55,940 nt of DNA, taken from the NCBI RefSeq assembly GCF_000970465.2, contig NZ_LAJE02000401.1:1-55940 (forward strand). The letters run 5' to 3'. The translations under genes were made by a program, and so were the position numbers. The first letter of the stretch is position 1; each line of letters starts with the position of its first letter. The notes under the pieces are model-generated. The model did not search any database. It was not told where the DNA came from and was given only the letters and a program-made list of their open reading frames with translations. Source of the stretch: Devosia insulae DS-56 (GTDB lineage: Bacteria > Pseudomonadota > Alphaproteobacteria > Rhizobiales > Devosiaceae). This document shows positions 36,208 to 42,490 of this stretch, piece after piece.

Positions 36208-36888
36208 CTAGACGCCGCGATAGAGCGCCGCCCCGGACATCAACACGATGACCTTGGTGCCGACGGCGACCCGGGCGTAGAGGTCGGTCACGTCGTCATT
36301 GTTCAGCCGGATGCAGCCCGACGAGATATTGAGGCCGATCGACCAGGGCTCGGCCGTGCCGTGGATGCGGTAGATCGTGTCCTTGCCGCCCTCGTAGAGA
36401 TACATCGCCCGTGCCCCCAGCGGGTTTTCGGGGCCGCCCGGCATGCCGTTGGCCCACTGCGCATTGCGCGGATCGCGGGCGATCATCTCGGCCGGCGGCG
36501 TCCAGGTCGGCCATTCCACCATGCGGCCGACCTTGACGATGCCGGCCCAGCCGAACCCGTCGCGTCCCACGCCGATGCCATAGCGGATTGCCTGAAACTC
36601 CGGGCGGACCAGATAGAGGAAATGCCGGTCGCCATCGATGATGATGGTTCCCGGCTTCTCGGCAGTGCGGAAGCTGACCGTCTGCCGCTTGAACTCCTCC
36701 GGTACCGAGCCATAGGCCTTGTAATATTGCATGGCGCGCTTGGGGTCGTAGTCGATCCAGGTTTTGCGCTTGGCATCATAGATCTGCGAGTAGACCGCCT
36801 GGGCCTGAGCCTCGCCGGCGCCCAGCATCGCCGCGGCCAGCCCGGCGCCCGAAAGCTCGAGCATCCGGCGTCGTGAGATGCCGCTCAT
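36208..36888 (-). CDS. L,D-transpeptidase (YkuD family)
   Basis: A 226-aa exported enzyme that cross-links peptidoglycan or attaches proteins to it. A twin-arginine-like signal (SRRRMLELSGAGLAAAML) is followed by a YkuD domain (GTIIIDGDRHFLYLVRP). The catalytic motif is complete: HGTAEPWSIGLNISSGCIRL, with the nucleophile Cys near residue 190 and the following Arg. Its ATG overlaps the stop of the binding-protein gene by 4 nt (ATGA), an unusual pairing. Confidence 0.93.
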   Translation of the reverse strand: MSGISRRRMLELSGAGLAAAMLGAGEAQAQAVYSQIYDAKRKTWIDYDPKRAMQYYKAYGSVPEEFKRQTVSFRTAEKPGTIIIDGDRHFLYLVRPEFQAIRYGIGVGRDGFGWAGIVKVGRMVEWPTWTPPAEMIARDPRNAQWANGMPGGPENPLGARAMYLYEGGKDTIYRIHGTAEPWSIGLNISSGCIRLNNDDVTDLYARVAVGTKVIVLMSGAALYRGV

Positions 36889-37880
36889 TGCAGCCACCCA
36901 TCGATCCGGGTGCGATTGGCGATGATCCAGTCGCGCGCCGCGTCCTCGGGTGACTTGCGTTCCACCTCCACTGCATAGCTCATCGCCGCAATATCGGCGG
37001 GCTCGAACTGGATGCGTCCGAGCAGGTCCGCGATAGCGGGGTGCTTCGTGGCCAGCGACGTGGCGTAGCCGATGGACAGCGACGATGCGTCCCAGCCGGT
37101 TGCGGCACTCGAGTGCTGCAGCCAGTCCTTGTCGTCGGCCGGCGCTACGATGTTCCAGCTGGCCGCGTCATGGGCCGGCTCCTCGAGCACCACGATGTCG
37201 TGCAGCATGAACACGTGGTGCGGCGAGTAGCAGTAAAACACCACCGGCCGGCCCAGCGCGCTGCCGGCATCGACCGCCGCCATGGCAACCTCTTCGGCCC
37301 CTTCGAGCAGTTGCATGGTCTGGTCGTAGCCGACGCTTCTGGCGCGGATGCGCTCGACATTGGTGGAGAACCACGAGCCATCGCCGATCCAGAGTTCGCC
37401 CTTGCCATCGTCGTCGGTGTCGAACGCCGCCGCGATTGCCGGGTCGTTCAGGTCGGCGACGGATTTGATGCCGGTCTGCTCGACTGCGGCGCGGGTCGCG
37501 CAGATGCCCTGATGGCCGGCAACTGAGCGCTTGCTGACGGTGAGACTGTCACCGATCCGCTTGACGGCGTTGTCGAGGTTGGGCGACCAGAGCTCGGGAT
37601 AGACATCGACCTCGCCCCGCGCGATCGCGGTCAAGAGGCCAATCGATCCGCGTTCCAGGTAGACCGGACTGTCGCCGGTCCGCTCCTTGGCCAACTCTCC
37701 GATGATGTGTCCGGTGACCTTGGCCGATGGCCAGGCGGTCAACCCGATGACCAGATCGTCCGCCAATGCGGCGCCGGTGGCCCAGCACAAACCTATCGCC
37801 GCGACGGCGAGATGTAATGATCGGTGGTTCGATCGGCTACGCCGAACCCTGGTAACCGACTGCTTTTTCCTGCGAAACAT
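36885..37880 (-). CDS. Orphan glycine-betaine/proline-type substrate-binding protein (OpuAC family)
   Basis: A 331-aa periplasmic binding protein with signal peptide (LAVAAIGLCWATGAALA). Family features: LVIGLTAWPSAKVTGHIIGE, ARGEVDVYPELWSPNLDN, WIGDGSWFS and VVFYCYSPHHVFM, where the aromatic residues form a quaternary-amine cage (family knowledge). No permease or ATPase gene is adjacent. Instead it overlaps an L,D-transpeptidase gene. It may serve an unlinked ProU/OpuA transporter or act as a sensor. Confidence 0.88.
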   Translation of the reverse strand: MFRRKKQSVTRVRRSRSNHRSLHLAVAAIGLCWATGAALADDLVIGLTAWPSAKVTGHIIGELAKERTGDSPVYLERGSIGLLTAIARGEVDVYPELWSPNLDNAVKRIGDSLTVSKRSVAGHQGICATRAAVEQTGIKSVADLNDPAIAAAFDTDDDGKGELWIGDGSWFSTNVERIRARSVGYDQTMQLLEGAEEVAMAAVDAGSALGRPVVFYCYSPHHVFMLHDIVVLEEPAHDAASWNIVAPADDKDWLQHSSAATGWDASSLSIGYATSLATKHPAIADLLGRIQFEPADIAAMSYAVEVERKSPEDAARDWIIANRTRIDGWLQ

Positions 37881-38183: not shown

Positions 38184-39446
38184 TCAGTCCCCGAGTACTG
38201 TAGGCACCCCGCCCTCGACCAGCAATTCGGCCGGCGCCGGGTGGCTGAGGAAGCCGCCCGGGCTGGCGGTCGGACCATAGGCGCCTGACTGCAGCACGGC
38301 GATCAGCGCATCGACTTCGACCGCTGGCAGCGCCACGGATCTGCCAAGTGTGTCGAGCGGCGTGCAGAGCGGGCCGACGACGCTGACCGGCGGCGCCGCC
38401 GGGTCACCGATCCGTGTCGGCGCAAGGATCGGATAGTCGCGTTTGATCACCTGACCGAGATTGCCGGAGGCGGCGAGGTGATGGTGCATGCCGCCATCGG
38501 TGACAATGAAGGTCTGCCCGCGCGAGCGCTTGATGGCGTTGACCGCCATCACATAGACGCCGGCCGGCCCGGCGAGGTACCGCCCGGGCTCCACCACCAC
38601 TCGGGTTCCCGTGGGCACCGTGCGCGCCAGCGCCGGAACGCCGGCGGCAATGGCCGTGAGATCGAGCGCCGCATCGCCCTGGAAATAGGGAATGCCGAGG
38701 CCGCCACCCAGGTCCACCGTGCTGAGCTGCCGGCCGATCCGCTGCGACACCTCGCGCGCCAGCGCCAGGCCATGCCCCCACTGCGCCAGCAGCACGCCGG
38801 CATCCAGCACCTGCGTGCCGGCGAACAAATGCAACCCGACGAGATCAAGGTGCGGGCAAGCTGCGAGCGCCGCAAGCACGTCGTCGAGGCTCTCCTCGTC
38901 GAAGCCGAAGGCCGATGGTTTGCCGCCCATCCGCATGGCGCCGCCCTGCACGGCCGCTACCGGATTGACCCGCAGCGCCACGGCCAGCGTCTTGCCGAGC
39001 GCCGCGCCGATGGCCTCGAGCCGGGTGATTTCCTCGAAGCTCTCGACGTGGATTTCCCCGACCCCGCCGGCAATTGCCTCTTCGAGTTCGGCCTTGCGCT
39101 TGCCGGGGCCGGCAAACAGGATCTTTTCGGGACGGGCCCCGGCCGCCCGGGCCCGCCGATACTCGCCGATCGAGGCGATCTCGACGCCCGCGCCCTCCTC
39201 GAGGAACAGCGCGATCACCGGCACCGCCGGGTTGGCCTTCACCGAATAGTGGATCGCCGCAAAGCCCTGTAGCGCCTCGCGCAACCTGCGGTAGCTGCGC
39301 CGCATCACCGCGGCATCATAGGCGAAGAGCGGCGTGCCGAAGCGTTGCGCCAGCTCCGATACGGCGACCCCGCCAATGCGGAGCTCGCCTTCACGCACTT
39401 CGAAATGCTCGGCCAGCAAAGCTGCCGCGAGATCGGCGCCGCTCAT
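38184..39446 (-). CDS. PLP-dependent fold-III decarboxylase (carrier-protein-associated)
   Basis: A 420-aa enzyme of the diaminopimelate/ornithine decarboxylase fold. The PLP Lys is in IHYSVKANP (about 70), the phosphate-binding loop is GGGLGIPY, then EPGRYLAG, and the catalytic Cys is in GPLCTPLD (about 359). It resembles decarboxylases associated with exosortase loci and BtrK of butirosin, which decarboxylates a glutamyl group bound to a carrier protein. Last gene of a four-gene operon with the ligase and ACP; its start overlaps the ligase stop by 4 nt. Confidence 0.88.
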   Translation of the reverse strand: MSGADLAAALLAEHFEVREGELRIGGVAVSELAQRFGTPLFAYDAAVMRRSYRRLREALQGFAAIHYSVKANPAVPVIALFLEEGAGVEIASIGEYRRARAAGARPEKILFAGPGKRKAELEEAIAGGVGEIHVESFEEITRLEAIGAALGKTLAVALRVNPVAAVQGGAMRMGGKPSAFGFDEESLDDVLAALAACPHLDLVGLHLFAGTQVLDAGVLLAQWGHGLALAREVSQRIGRQLSTVDLGGGLGIPYFQGDAALDLTAIAAGVPALARTVPTGTRVVVEPGRYLAGPAGVYVMAVNAIKRSRGQTFIVTDGGMHHHLAASGNLGQVIKRDYPILAPTRIGDPAAPPVSVVGPLCTPLDTLGRSVALPAVEVDALIAVLQSGAYGPTASPGGFLSHPAPAELLVEGGVPTVLGD

Positions 39447-40960
39447 GCCGAGCGCTCGCGCAGCAAATGCGGGTAGTCGACCTTGCCATTGGGGGTGGTC
39501 GGCAGCATCGGCACCAGCTCGATCTCGCGCGGCACCATATAGGCCGGCAGCTTATCGGCGATGGTGGCGAGCACCGCCGGCGGGCTGCACGCCTCGCTCG
39601 AAGGCACCGCCACGGCGTGGACCCGCTGCCCGGCAGTGGCATCGGGCAAGCCGATGACGGCCACCTGCCGGAAGGCGCCGGTCGCCATCACCACTTCCTC
39701 CACCTCGGTCGGGCTGATGCGGTAGCCCGACGACTTGATCATCGCATCGGCGCGTCCGACGAAGGTGAGGAACCCCTCCTCGTCCTCCACCACCATGTCA
39801 CCCGAATAGCAGACCACCACGCCGCCACGCTCGGCCGGAGTGCGGGGGTCGGGCCGCAGCACCCGCGCCGTATCCTCGGGCCGGCGCCAATAGCCGAGCG
39901 ACACCGTGGGGCCGCGATGCACCAGGATGCCCGGCTCGCCGGGCGCGGCGCGACGTCCATCCGCCGTCACCGGAAACACTTCGGTCTCGGGAATGGCGCG
40001 GCCGATCGAGTTCGGCCGGCGGTCCAATTCTTCGGGCGGCAGGAAGGTCGAGCGGAACGCCTCGGTGAGCCCATACATCAGGAACACCCGGGTATCGGGC
40101 AACAGGTGGCGCAGCCGGCGCAGCGTCTCGGTCGGCACCGCGCCGCCCGAGTTGGTGATGTAGCGCAGCGTCGTCAGCCGGGTGCGCGGCAACAACGGCG
40201 CGCCGCGGGTGAGGATGGCCCACACCGTCGGCACCCCGGCGAGCCCGGTTATGCCGTGCCGCTCGATGGCGCGCACGATGTCGTCACCCAGCCGGAAGGT
40301 CAGCAGCACCAGCGTCGCCCCCTGCTCTGCTGCGGTGAGCAGCTGGTTCAGGCCATAGTCGAAACTGAACGGCAGCACCGAAAGGATGCGATCTTCCCCG
40401 GTGATGCCGAGATAAGTGCGGACGATCCGGCAGCCCGCCACGAGGTTGCGATGGCTCAGCATCACCCCCTTCGGCTTGCCGGTGGAGCCGGAGGTATAAA
40501 GGATGGCGGCGAGGTCCTCGCCGATCGCCCGCGGGCGTGCCGGCTCTCGGCCGGTTTCGGCGATATCCTCGACCATCAGGATGGTCAGATCAGGCGCCTG
40601 GCCCAGGGCTTCCGCCAGCAGCGGCGCCAACGCCCGGTTGGTGACGACGATCCGTGCACCGGCATCGGTGACGATATGCGCCACCTGGATCGGCTTCAGC
40701 AGCGGATTGATCGGCACGAACACCGCGTCGGCAAGGCTGCTGGCGAAGATGGCGCAGCATTCCTCGATGGATTTGGGCAACAGGATCGCCACCCGGTCAC
40801 CGAACACAACGCCCGCCGCGCGATAGGCCGTTGCGTAATCGGTGGCGCGCCGGCGCAGCCCATCAAAGCTGAGCTGTCGCTCGCCATCGATGATGGCGAT
40901 CCGGTCGCCCGCCACATCGCGCTCGAGCAGATGGTGAACCAGCAGCGGCTCGGCGCTCAT
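39443..40960 (-). CDS. AMP-dependent acyl/amino-acid ligase
   Basis: A 505-aa ANL-superfamily adenylating enzyme. P-loop motif A3 is YTSGSTGKPKGVMLSH (about 157), A5 is YGLTE, A8 is GRADAMIKSSGYRISPTEVE and the catalytic Lys is in PNGKVDY (about 491). It is like the ligases of exosortase A loci, and its neighbours (ACP, decarboxylase) suggest it loads a carboxylic or amino acid onto the carrier. The true substrate is unknown. Both ends overlap neighbours by 4 nt. Confidence 0.9.
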   Translation of the reverse strand: MSAEPLLVHHLLERDVAGDRIAIIDGERQLSFDGLRRRATDYATAYRAAGVVFGDRVAILLPKSIEECCAIFASSLADAVFVPINPLLKPIQVAHIVTDAGARIVVTNRALAPLLAEALGQAPDLTILMVEDIAETGREPARPRAIGEDLAAILYTSGSTGKPKGVMLSHRNLVAGCRIVRTYLGITGEDRILSVLPFSFDYGLNQLLTAAEQGATLVLLTFRLGDDIVRAIERHGITGLAGVPTVWAILTRGAPLLPRTRLTTLRYITNSGGAVPTETLRRLRHLLPDTRVFLMYGLTEAFRSTFLPPEELDRRPNSIGRAIPETEVFPVTADGRRAAPGEPGILVHRGPTVSLGYWRRPEDTARVLRPDPRTPAERGGVVVCYSGDMVVEDEEGFLTFVGRADAMIKSSGYRISPTEVEEVVMATGAFRQVAVIGLPDATAGQRVHAVAVPSSEACSPPAVLATIADKLPAYMVPREIELVPMLPTTPNGKVDYPHLLRERSA

Positions 40961-41208
40961 CTCACCCCTCGCTGATCGACGAAGGCAGCGAGCCGCGCCG
41001 GCGTGGCCAGGTTGTCGGGGGTGAAGTCGGCGTCCTCGAGCGCGATGCCGAAGCGCTCGCCGAGGAACATCATCAGATCGAGCATGCCGAGCGAATCCAC
41101 CGGGCCGCCGGCCAGCAGTTCGGTCTCCGGCGTGAGCTGCTGCAGCGCCGGAAAGCGCTGGCGCAGATAGGTTTCGATGATGGTGCTGGTGCTGGCGTCG
41201 TCGATCAT
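40957..41208 (-). CDS. Acyl carrier protein
   Basis: An 83-aa acidic carrier protein. The phosphopantetheine Ser (about 37) is in GPVDSLGMLDLMMFL, preceded by a helix and followed by the acidic recognition helix (ERFGIALEDADFTPDN). It overlaps both neighbours by 4 nt, which points to a dedicated carrier in one complex rather than the fatty-acid ACP. Confidence 0.93.
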   Translation of the reverse strand: MIDDASTSTIIETYLRQRFPALQQLTPETELLAGGPVDSLGMLDLMMFLGERFGIALEDADFTPDNLATPARLAAFVDQRGVR

Positions 41209-42047
41209 GCTGCCCTCGCGGCGTGCTGGTGAAGGAAAGTGAGTTCGGTGTAGCTGTGGTCGATGGCGTCGGCCGGCAGCTCGCCCTTGGCGAACACCCG
41301 GCAGCGCCGCGCGGCATAAAGCGCGCCCGGCCAGGTGGCCGTGCGGTTCGCCTCGATCTCGAGAAACAGCAGCCCTTGGGCGAAGAGGAAGCGGGCGATG
41401 GCGCCGCGCTGCCGGCGCGCGAGGCTGAGGCTGTCGCAATAGATCAGCCGGGCGCCCGGCAGGCCGCGCAAACGCGTGCGGAGGAAGATCAGCGGCTGGC
41501 GCTGTCCGTCCGACGTGATCAGCGTGGCGCAGAGCATGCCCATCGCGAGGTGGTCGCGCAGCAGCTCGCCATCATCGTCCGCGAGGTCGCGACTGAGCCG
41601 GGCGCCCGAGGGTCTGAAACTGTCGAACAGCGTCGGCACGATCATCGAACCGCGAACCCGGGCGGTAACACCGAGCCGTTCGTTGACCGCCTCGACCTCG
41701 CGGCTCGGGCTGAGGTCTGTCACCAGTTCGTCGGCCGCCACGGCGGCCCGCAACATCAGCGGGGCCCAGAACCGGGCCCGCTGGTCGACAAACCAGCTCG
41801 AGAGGTTGAGCTTTCGCCTTCCCCCTGCTCCGGCGGGGCTGTCGAGCGTCAGCAGCACGCCGACATCCTCGCCCTGGTCGACCAGCAGCGTGCCGATCGG
41901 CCCGGCACCGCGCGCCGCGCGGTAGGCCTCCAGCGCCCTGAGTACGCCCGTCCAGAACCCTGGTGGTCGATTGGGAAAGCCGCGGCACAGCACGGCTTCG
42001 GCGCGCCCGAGGGCGCCGGGGGTAATGACTTCGATCTGCATGGCCAT
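41205..42047 (-). CDS. GNAT-like acyltransferase
   Basis: A 280-aa protein with a GNAT-like layout: GFPNRPPGFWTGVLRALEA, IGTLLVDQGEDVGVLLTL, the recognisable LNLSSWFVDQRARFWAPLML and DLSPSREVEAVNERLGV. Proteins with the NLSSWYV pattern sit in polysaccharide and carrier-protein loci. In this operon it probably transfers the carrier-bound group to an acceptor. First gene; its stop overlaps the ACP start. Confidence 0.65.
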   Translation of the reverse strand: MAMQIEVITPGALGRAEAVLCRGFPNRPPGFWTGVLRALEAYRAARGAGPIGTLLVDQGEDVGVLLTLDSPAGAGGRRKLNLSSWFVDQRARFWAPLMLRAAVAADELVTDLSPSREVEAVNERLGVTARVRGSMIVPTLFDSFRPSGARLSRDLADDDGELLRDHLAMGMLCATLITSDGQRQPLIFLRTRLRGLPGARLIYCDSLSLARRQRGAIARFLFAQGLLFLEIEANRTATWPGALYAARRCRVFAKGELPADAIDHSYTELTFLHQHAARAA

Positions 42048-42169: not shown

Positions 42170-42490
42170 TCAGGCGATGCGCCGGGGAGGCTCGTCCGGC
42201 AGAAACCGCGGAATGCGCGCCACGCTGCTCGCCTTGGCCGGCTTCCACGCCGCGCCCCATAGGGGCAGCACGTCCGCCGAGGCCGTCTCGGTCATTAGCG
42301 GTGGGGTATCGTGGACCTCACCGGCGTCGAACATCGGGGCACTCTCGGCCATGACCGGCTCACCCGCGTCTGCCAGTGACACCGTCGCCGTCATCACCTG
42401 CAGATCCGCGGCAGCCGCCCAGGCGGCGGCAAGCGCGCCGCCCAGCAGCGACAATAACAGGATCATCCAAATGTACGGCCTGAGCAACAT
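42170..42490 (-). CDS. Secreted or anchored hypothetical protein
   Basis: A 106-aa protein with an N-terminal hydrophobic segment (IWMILLLSLLGGALAAAWAA) that could be a signal peptide or anchor, and a Glu/Pro-rich tail ending PRFLPDEPPRRIA. No family recognised. Placed upstream of the carrier-protein operon on the same strand, separated by 122 nt. Confidence 0.55.
   Translation of the reverse strand: MLLRPYIWMILLLSLLGGALAAAWAAAADLQVMTATVSLADAGEPVMAESAPMFDAGEVHDTPPLMTETASADVLPLWGAAWKPAKASSVARIPRFLPDEPPRRIA

Follow-up and report, generated by a model that had tools for sequence, protein, structure and literature searches.

A carrier-protein operon in Devosia insulae that may produce a carrier-bound omega-amino acid and pass it on

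Analysis of a stretch of 55,940 nucleotides from Devosia insulae DS-56 (contig NZ_LAJE02000401.1; hereafter the window) points to a four-gene operon whose products probably make a carrier-bound omega-amino acid and pass it on. Support from the sequence comes from the enzyme families, the pocket residues of the ligase and the recurrence of the four-gene set, while we infer the exact substrate, decarboxylation on the acyl carrier protein (ACP), the direction of transfer by the GNAT-like protein and the acceptor. The ligase would adenylate an amino-dicarboxylic acid and load it by the side-chain carboxyl group onto the phosphopantetheine of the ACP; L-Asp and L-Glu are the most likely substrates, as a glutamate mutase was not found in the window's genome. 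A BtrK-like decarboxylase would strip the alpha-carboxylate to give beta-alanyl- or 4-aminobutyryl-S-ACP, and the GNAT-like protein may take this group off the ACP and attach it to an acceptor amine or hydroxyl, with the terminal amine staying free. These three steps had been suggested in a preliminary description of the locus; homology supports the first two, and the third is plausible.

The genes are located on the minus strand in the order GNAT-like protein, ACP, ligase and decarboxylase, and all four open reading frames as well as the three 4-nt ATGA overlaps that join them, as previously described, were found in the window. The GNAT-like acyltransferase (P0001, 280 aa, 41205..42047), assigned via its family profile, occupies the same position in the relatives G010, G108 and G087. 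It is followed by a stand-alone acyl/aminoacyl carrier protein (P0002, 83 aa, 40957..41208), an AMP-forming ligase (P0003, 505 aa, 39443..40960) and a pyridoxal phosphate (PLP) fold-III decarboxylase (P0004, 420 aa, 38184..39446). A longer ligase frame starting from 41317 is possible according to the open reading frame listing; homology to the G010 ligase begins with the first residue read from the ATG at 40960. G010, G108 and G087 possess the same four genes in identical order, in G010 equally with three ATGA overlaps, while decayed cassettes occur in G077, with most of the ligase and decarboxylase deleted, and in Rhizobium CC-CFT758, with a broken ACP and ligase. Upstream of the GNAT gene, at a distance of 122 bp, a minus-strand frame (42170..42490) that the preliminary description does not mention encodes a small conserved protein of 106 aa, which shows an excess at the third codon position, has an N-terminus resembling a signal peptide by eye and gave no Pfam match. 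As G010 and G013 encode relatives with 42-45% identity upstream of their GNAT genes (tblastn E 1.5e-16 and 1.2e-15), this exported-looking protein, present in three genomes, is probably a fifth part of the cassette in the genus.

Pfam matches bear out the earlier assignment of an ACP with a phosphopantetheine serine, an adenylating ligase and a fold-III decarboxylase. The ACP scores 24.2 bits against PF00550 (cut-off 20.8), carries the phosphopantetheine site at Ser39 within GPVDSLG and has the peptidyl carrier protein 2my5 as its best PDB match. The ligase (PF00501 and PF13193) reaches 585.6 bits against TIGR03098, the exosortase A system-associated ligase family, under the cut-off of 592.35. 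For its pocket region, the best PDB match is 3wv4, which we take to be VinN of vicenistatin biosynthesis, with Asp201, Ser271 and Arg303 of P0003 aligned to VinN chain positions 246, 315 and 347. The VinN pocket residues are presumably Asp230, Lys330 and Arg331, with printed chain positions 246, 346 and 347 at a constant offset of 16, and we assume the Asp to bind the amine and the Arg to bind the carboxylate of the substrate. In the alignment, P0003 has both the amine-binding Asp and the carboxylate-binding Arg of a VinN-type pocket. Among rows covering at least 250 query residues, these two residues occur together in 47/47 distinct high-scoring ligases (P0003 and VinN included) and, as aligned, in none of 13 low-scoring AMP-binding proteins that served as controls. 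In the Pseudochrobactrum ligase L140, where the alignment is ambiguous and carries no weight as evidence, the Arg falls into the pocket column only after a six-residue gap, with Val in the gap-free reading. The Lys at VinN chain position 346 is replaced by Phe in P0003, so that the substrate may differ from that of VinN. The earlier comparison with butirosin is to be corrected for the ligase, whose pocket has VinN as best solved match; for the decarboxylase, the best solved relative is BtrK.

The decarboxylase (PF02784 and PF00278) finds BtrK as its best PDB matches (E 5.5e-82 and 1.1e-81), ahead of DAP decarboxylase (E 9.7e-52) by approximately 30 orders of magnitude in E-value. Three BtrK-type patterns, composed once the alignment had been seen, are present in 8/8 cassette or trio rows and 31/31 TIGR03099 rows, but in 0/22 LysA rows. 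The phylogeny against BtrK and exosortase-type enzymes that had been recommended places the cassette decarboxylases beside, not within, TIGR03099, as a clade of their own adjoining this family. In the first tree, the two separate groups have support of 100/99 and 100/100, the latter for the cassette clade; this tree omits 15 names, namely 11 redundant views of a single gene, the unmatched L018, and the incomplete L022 and L035 (G077) and L036 (G013). A second tree of 31 chosen rows recovers the separate clade with support of 99/98. Neither tree includes BtrK in the cassette clade; its branch is long (2.4) and is placed differently in the two.

With respect to P0001, neither an NCBIfam match at E 0.01 nor a Pfam match at E 0.1, and so none to the GNAT model, was obtained. 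A profile of its relatives, however, picks up L080 at E 3e-24 and L083 at E 8e-22, and these two attain 32.0 and 23.3 bits with PF00583 (cut-off 20.7). Membership in the GNAT superfamily, and with it the acyltransferase-like label given before, is thereby supported indirectly, through distant members of the family profile. An AlphaFold model of the GNAT from two sequences had a pLDDT of 36 and a pTM of 0.26, searching the PDB with a profile of 12 relatives produced two matches (E 1.7 and 2.2), and no relative turned up in one scan of viral contigs. The PEP-CTERM N-acyl amino acid synthase (PMC9762135) was considered as a relative and dropped, with no NCBIfam model matching P0001. According to PMC10127204, the GNAT domains found in some polyketide synthases act as decarboxylases on malonyl groups bound to an ACP, which provides a precedent for GNAT action on carrier-bound groups. 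Among 151 relatives, the GNAT is present in 8/8 genomes with a decarboxylase above 300 bits versus 3/143 others (raw counts that ignore kinship), with GNAT and decarboxylase on separate contigs in two of the eight, G013 and G017. On a Pseudochrobactrum plasmid, ligase, ACP and GNAT are adjacent with no decarboxylase within the stretch, as expected if the GNAT takes the ligase-loaded group. The GNAT is not obligatory, as 20-kb stretches of G432 and G657 contain ACP, ligase and decarboxylase without it, and in those of G650 and G771 the decarboxylase alone was found.

Two alternatives assign the enzymes to established families. That P0004 is a second DAP decarboxylase of lysine/DAP metabolism with unrelated neighbours is extremely improbable: it does score 277.3 bits against TIGR01048 (lysA), but this is under the cut-off of 297.9, the LysA patterns are missing from its alignment, another decarboxylase of the genome (L017) groups with LysA, and the four-gene set recurs; on cut-off, PDB ranking, tree and motifs together, this identity was rejected for P0004. 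The other alternative is an ordinary exosortase-A accessory set that has since lost its exosortase. TIGR03098 and TIGR03099, curated only as 'hypothetical equivalogs', are the nearest curated families, have similar motifs and also occur with an ACP. In favour of such a remnant are the scores of the ligase (585.6 bits, cut-off 592.35) and of the decarboxylase (424.2-424.3 bits against TIGR03099, cut-off 478.45), the pocket Asp and Arg common to cassette and exosortase-A ligases, and the four of 31 genomes with an over-cut-off TIGR03099 that likewise lack an exosortase match. Nevertheless, both scores remain under the cut-offs, the decarboxylase clade stands apart in both trees, and an exosortase (PF09721) is present in 0/10 genomes with a cassette-type decarboxylase versus 27/31 genomes with an over-cut-off TIGR03099, which makes such a remnant quite improbable. 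The absence of an exosortase noted before for the window extends to the whole genome, where neither TIGR03109 nor PF09721 has a match at E 0.001, and these results uphold the earlier view of enzymes that resemble the exosortase type yet are not exosortase-linked. Three 20-kb stretches from genomes with an exosortase (L131, L132 and L134) yielded no GNAT of the cassette family.

Other alternatives retain the carrier-bound product and differ in its fate. It is unlikely that the GNAT acts as a capping enzyme, using acyl-CoA or acyl-ACP to acylate the omega-aminoacyl-ACP at its free amine before another enzyme releases the product. VinM does add a protecting alanyl group to a carrier-bound amine in vicenistatin biosynthesis (PMC11284099), and an alpha/beta hydrolase encoded immediately upstream in two of the loci, those of Shinella WSC3-e and Rhizobium, could be the releasing enzyme, but by eye no separate releasing enzyme was recognised next to the window, G010 and G108 cassettes. 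The distant relatives L080 and L083 do have the usual RGxGxG CoA loop, alone among 26 aligned rows; P0001, with RARFWAP in place of the canonical loop (R/Q-x-x-G-x-G/A), and 22 other rows, carrier-adjacent ones included, have a loop two residues shorter without RGxGxG, which argues against acyl-CoA, although L078, which is not carrier-adjacent, lacks the motif too. It is likewise doubtful, though a little less so, that the cassette yields a small diffusible molecule such as a signal, a siderophore part or an osmolyte conjugate, with a cytosolic amine as the acceptor, instead of a surface modification. Polysaccharide genes were not recognised by eye around the cassettes of the window (10 window proteins also scanned), G010, G108 and G077, which therefore indicate no acceptor, and in G010 genes for a periplasmic binding protein and a FecCD permease lie upstream in the same orientation. 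Such a FecCD neighbour was, however, not found among the 10 scanned window proteins, and polysaccharide genes surround the related cassettes of Shinella HZN7, Shinella WSC3-e, Rhizobium CC-CFT758 and G087. The earlier statement that polysaccharide genes are missing thus applies to the inspected surroundings of the window cassette but not to the family.

In these polysaccharide-locus relatives, a sugar of the polysaccharide or its precursor is most likely the acceptor in view of the location of the cassettes. Inside a polysaccharide locus on pSymB of Sinorhizobium meliloti ml47, a GNAT-family gene, a ligase, a decarboxylase and a carrier gene are also found. A hitherto unassigned class of envelope-decorating systems can tentatively be proposed. 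Together with ligase, carrier and on-carrier decarboxylase, a carrier-dependent GNAT would put omega-amino acids (beta-alanine, 4-aminobutyrate or 3-aminoisobutyrate) on extracellular polysaccharides, which would thereby gain positive charge. The ligase and decarboxylase of exosortase-A systems would perform the same chemistry with another transferase, and the Devosia form would be free-standing with a dedicated small exported protein.

Individual features of the operon are found in known systems. In Nod factor synthesis, NodA with the carrier NodF moves an acyl group from a dedicated ACP to an amino sugar; compared by description, an acyltransferase with a dedicated ACP is shared, whereas NodA uses a fatty acyl group with neither decarboxylase nor amino acid ligase. 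In the Dlt system, the ligase DltA and the stand-alone carrier DltC deliver an amino acid to a polymer of the envelope; by description, the ligase and carrier are alike and DltC models match P0002 weakly, but the cassette adds a decarboxylase and has a GNAT in place of DltB. With the butirosin BtrI/BtrJ/BtrK set, the operon shares motifs and, probably, carrier-bound decarboxylation, its decarboxylase being closest to BtrK among solved structures, although the trees put BtrK, on its long branch, outside the cassette clade and BtrJ is a ligase of a different type. BtrK decarboxylates glutamyl-S-BtrI (PMC7857480). In vicenistatin biosynthesis (PMC11284099), VinN puts 3-methylaspartate on the ACP VinL, on which VinO then decarboxylates it; a ligase of the ANL type with the same pocket Asp and Arg, a stand-alone ACP and a PLP decarboxylase are common to both. 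The Lys before the pocket Arg aside, a difference is that the window shows no equivalent of the polyketide synthase, VinM, VinK and VinJ and has a GNAT instead; a macrolactam starter set (second aminoacyl ligase, VinK, polyketide synthase) was absent from the window gene list by eye and from the 10 flanking proteins scanned. Like vicenistatin with its glutamate mutase VinH/VinI, the distant relative G543 carries a mutase gene: its ligase and decarboxylase genes flank one for a fused methylaspartate mutase (PF06368, E 1.3e-141), and an ACP gene and a gene matching the GNAT profile are close by. As an exosortase is encoded elsewhere in this genome, the mutase may belong to a different use of this pathway. 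The ornithine-lipid enzymes OlsH/OlsI, considered after a weak ACP match, were rejected since OlsH is GH3-like and the word decarboxylase is absent from the text (PMC12493201).

A description of the cassette was not found in the titles and abstract openings listed by searches of the open-access literature or in curated family databases, nor in passages of PMC7857480, PMC11284099, PMC12493201, PMC9762135, PMC11405602, PMC8776678, PMC10127204 and PMC3557214. Equally, the words decarboxylase, ligase, acyl carrier and acyltransferase are all absent from the text of the 2006 PEP-CTERM paper (PMC1569441). The pocket and motif evidence suggests one specific, testable reaction for the cassette and the exosortase-A ligase and decarboxylase alike. 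If the polysaccharide reading is true, on-carrier decarboxylation, known from antibiotics, would decorate bacterial surfaces, including those of the genetically tractable symbiont Sinorhizobium meliloti (pSymB, strain ml47).

The four consecutive genes at positions 42047-38184 of the minus strand encode a GNAT-like protein (280 aa), an ACP (83 aa) with Ser39 within GPVDSLG, an AMP-forming ligase (505 aa) and a fold-III PLP decarboxylase (420 aa), and the three ATGA overlaps between them recorded in the preliminary description are all present (41208-41205, 40960-40957 and 39446-39443, minus strand). Overlaps of this type are frequent in operons generally and only suggest co-translation of the cassette genes; recurrence of the identical gene set and order in three related genomes (G010, G108 and G087), with the three overlaps repeated in G010, which shares the genus of the window genome, is the stronger sign that the four genes form a unit. 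Altered versions of the cassette have equally been observed. In G077 (L022:9450-11750), GNAT and ACP are full-length and ligase and decarboxylase have shrunk to one fused ORF devoid of most of the ligase and of the first part of the decarboxylase including the PLP lysine; in Rhizobium sp. CC-CFT758 (L137:7214-8996), decarboxylase and GNAT ORFs are full-length, the carrier ORF is shortened and the ligase is broken into three separate ORFs.

Among solved structures, the decarboxylase (P0004) matches best to BtrK of butirosin synthesis (PDB 7ru7, E 5.5e-82; 2j66, E 1.1e-81), followed by a diaminopimelate (DAP) decarboxylase (E 9.7e-52). A 76-row tree places the 22 rows of the DAP decarboxylase LysA on one side of a branch (100/100). 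Opposite them, the four cassette rows group with four rows of the same type from G432, G657, G650 and G771 (100/100), and the 31 rows above the cut-off of the exosortase-A-associated model TIGR03099 form a separate group (100/99). The phylogeny proposed at the outset thus sets the cassette clade apart from the exosortase-type enzymes; the placement of BtrK, on the non-LysA side with a long branch, differs between two trees. Three BtrK-type sequence patterns, composed after the alignment had been seen, occur in 8/8 cassette and same-type rows, in BtrK, in 31/31 TIGR03099 rows and in 0/22 LysA rows, and in 9, 12 and 14 of the 14 remaining rows. Furthermore, ORFs of >800 aa holding a decarboxylase-like region amid several AMP ligases and small carrier-like ORFs were seen in two stretches (L127 and L128), perhaps a more complex assembly line with the same decarboxylase type.

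In agreement with the original observation, no exosortase was found in the window genome (G000), nor in the other genomes among the ten with a cassette-type decarboxylase (G010, G013, which is only 82% complete, G077, G087, G108, G432, G657, G650 and G771), as compared to 27 of the 31 genomes with an over-cut-off TIGR03099 protein (absent from G619, G883, G017 and G075). The cassette is thus kin to the exosortase-A-associated pair of ligase and decarboxylase, and separate from that system. Near one exosortase-type ligase/decarboxylase locus lies the start of an ORF that by eye resembles a FemAB-type aminoacyltransferase (L132:19429-19899), a possible stand-in for the GNAT protein at that locus.

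The best curated match of the ligase (P0003) is the exosortase-A-associated ligase TIGR03098, slightly under its cut-off (585.6 versus 592.35). Its pocket region (residues 150-345) has as best solved match VinN of vicenistatin synthesis (3wv4, E 3.1e-28), which loads 3-methylaspartate onto the ACP VinL (PMC11284099). All 47 distinct ligases compared (VinN, P0003 and 45 proteins scoring >200 bits) conserve the Asp and Arg that align with chain positions 246 and 347 of VinN, and 0/13 lower-scoring AMP-binding proteins, as aligned, possess both. In VinN, these residues bind the amine and the second carboxylate; the Lys adjoining the Arg is replaced by Phe in P0003, so that the acid loaded may be a different one. 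A search of the window genome and 26 others for a glutamate mutase gave a match in G543 only. There, a fused B12-binding and methylaspartate mutase protein (L117:10445-12376; PF06368, E 1.3e-141) is encoded between ligase and decarboxylase, genes for an ACP and a GNAT-profile protein lie close by, and this gene set follows vicenistatin logic; an exosortase is present in G543 on a different contig from the cassette-like genes.

The GNAT-like protein (P0001) has no match among NCBIfam and Pfam models, nor to any PDB chain with an E-value of 1 or below, and its family profile has matches in 14/385 genomes of the class, the window genome included. Two distant members (L080 and L083) score above the PF00583 cut-off and carry an RGxGxG CoA loop, and the loop of L082 has the same, longer length; in the other 23 of 26 aligned relatives including P0001 (RARFWAP), the loop is two residues shorter and without RGxGxG, with one glycine retained in the Sinorhizobium meliloti and G619 proteins. 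We infer that the donor may be the loaded ACP and not acetyl-CoA. The protein L078 equally has a short loop with no adjoining carrier gene as far as seen, and the link between short loop and carrier is therefore not exclusive.

Among 151 relatives, a GNAT match occurs in 8/8 genomes with a decarboxylase >300 bits (TIGR03099) versus 3/143 others (Fisher p 3e-11, uncorrected for relatedness), with the two genes on different contigs in G013 and G017. On the other hand, the 20-kb stretches of G432, G657, G650 and G771 contain no GNAT gene, which counts against an obligatory role, and in G432 and G657 ACP and ligase adjoin the decarboxylase. In a wider sample, 7/45 genomes with a decarboxylase >300 bits have a GNAT match, near the decarboxylase in two of them (G619 and G543). 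A Pseudochrobactrum plasmid (L140:7120-9849) carries AMP ligase, carrier protein and GNAT with no decarboxylase in the stretch read, possibly a minimal version with another substrate. A second type of GNAT-family locus, read by eye (L024, L025, L027, L074, L075 and L076), has small carrier-like ORFs and varying sets of SDR, AMP-ligase-like or thiamine-diphosphate-type genes, with no strong match to the cassette decarboxylase.

With respect to the acceptor, the initial statement that polysaccharide genes are missing holds around the window cassette (gene list by eye; 10 flanking proteins scanned) and does not extend to related loci, as four of the eight GNAT-bearing cassette-type loci with flanks read lie among polysaccharide genes (G087, Shinella HZN7, Shinella WSC3-e and Rhizobium CC-CFT758, the last with broken ACP and ligase). 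The G087 flank includes the initiating sugar transferase PF02397, its other polysaccharide genes being judged by eye. Equally by eye, no polysaccharide genes were seen in the flanks of the window, G010, G108 and G077 cassettes, nor at the GNAT-less loci of G432, G657, G650 and G771. On the TIGR03099 side, GNAT and decarboxylase genes reside together in polysaccharide-type loci of G075 and G619 (by eye), GNAT and ACP genes lie among polysaccharide-type genes in G017, with the decarboxylase on another contig, and, of the 26 Sinorhizobium plasmids in which a GNAT match occurred, the one examined (S. meliloti ml47 pSymB) has an annotated polysaccharide locus. With such mixed neighbourhoods, the cassette therefore occurs in more than one context, and where gene context speaks, a sugar is the best guess for the acceptor.

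At 42170-42490, separated from the GNAT gene by 122 bp on its upstream side, is a 106-aa ORF whose start resembles a signal peptide by eye. Conservation of this ORF extends to three genomes of one genus, since G010 and G013 likewise have a relative (42-45% identity) 5' of their GNAT genes; between window and G010, differences number 33, 37 and 55 at codon positions 1, 2 and 3, the third being affected most often. The protein has no Pfam match, and tblastn detected no relative at E <0.1 in L021-L023, L026, L119, L120, L122, L123, L133 and L136-L140. This exported-looking protein could be the acceptor, a partner or unrelated to the cassette. Downstream, at 36208-37880, genes for an L,D-transpeptidase (YkuD) and a glycine-betaine-type binding protein show no sign of belonging to the cassette.

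Taken from pocket residues and family, an amino-dicarboxylate would be loaded onto the ACP; kinship with BtrK points to subsequent alpha-decarboxylation on the carrier, which would yield beta-alanyl- or 4-aminobutyryl-ACP, and the GNAT-like protein may then transfer the group to the acceptor. No description of such a cassette with a carrier-linked GNAT outside exosortase or antibiotic clusters was found in the open-access literature searched, and none of the family hits seen named the combination as a system. The individual cassette enzymes all belong to known kinds, and vicenistatin and butirosin synthesis provide precedents for the reaction logic; in contrast to these, the cassette lies outside antibiotic clusters and adds a carrier-linked GNAT.
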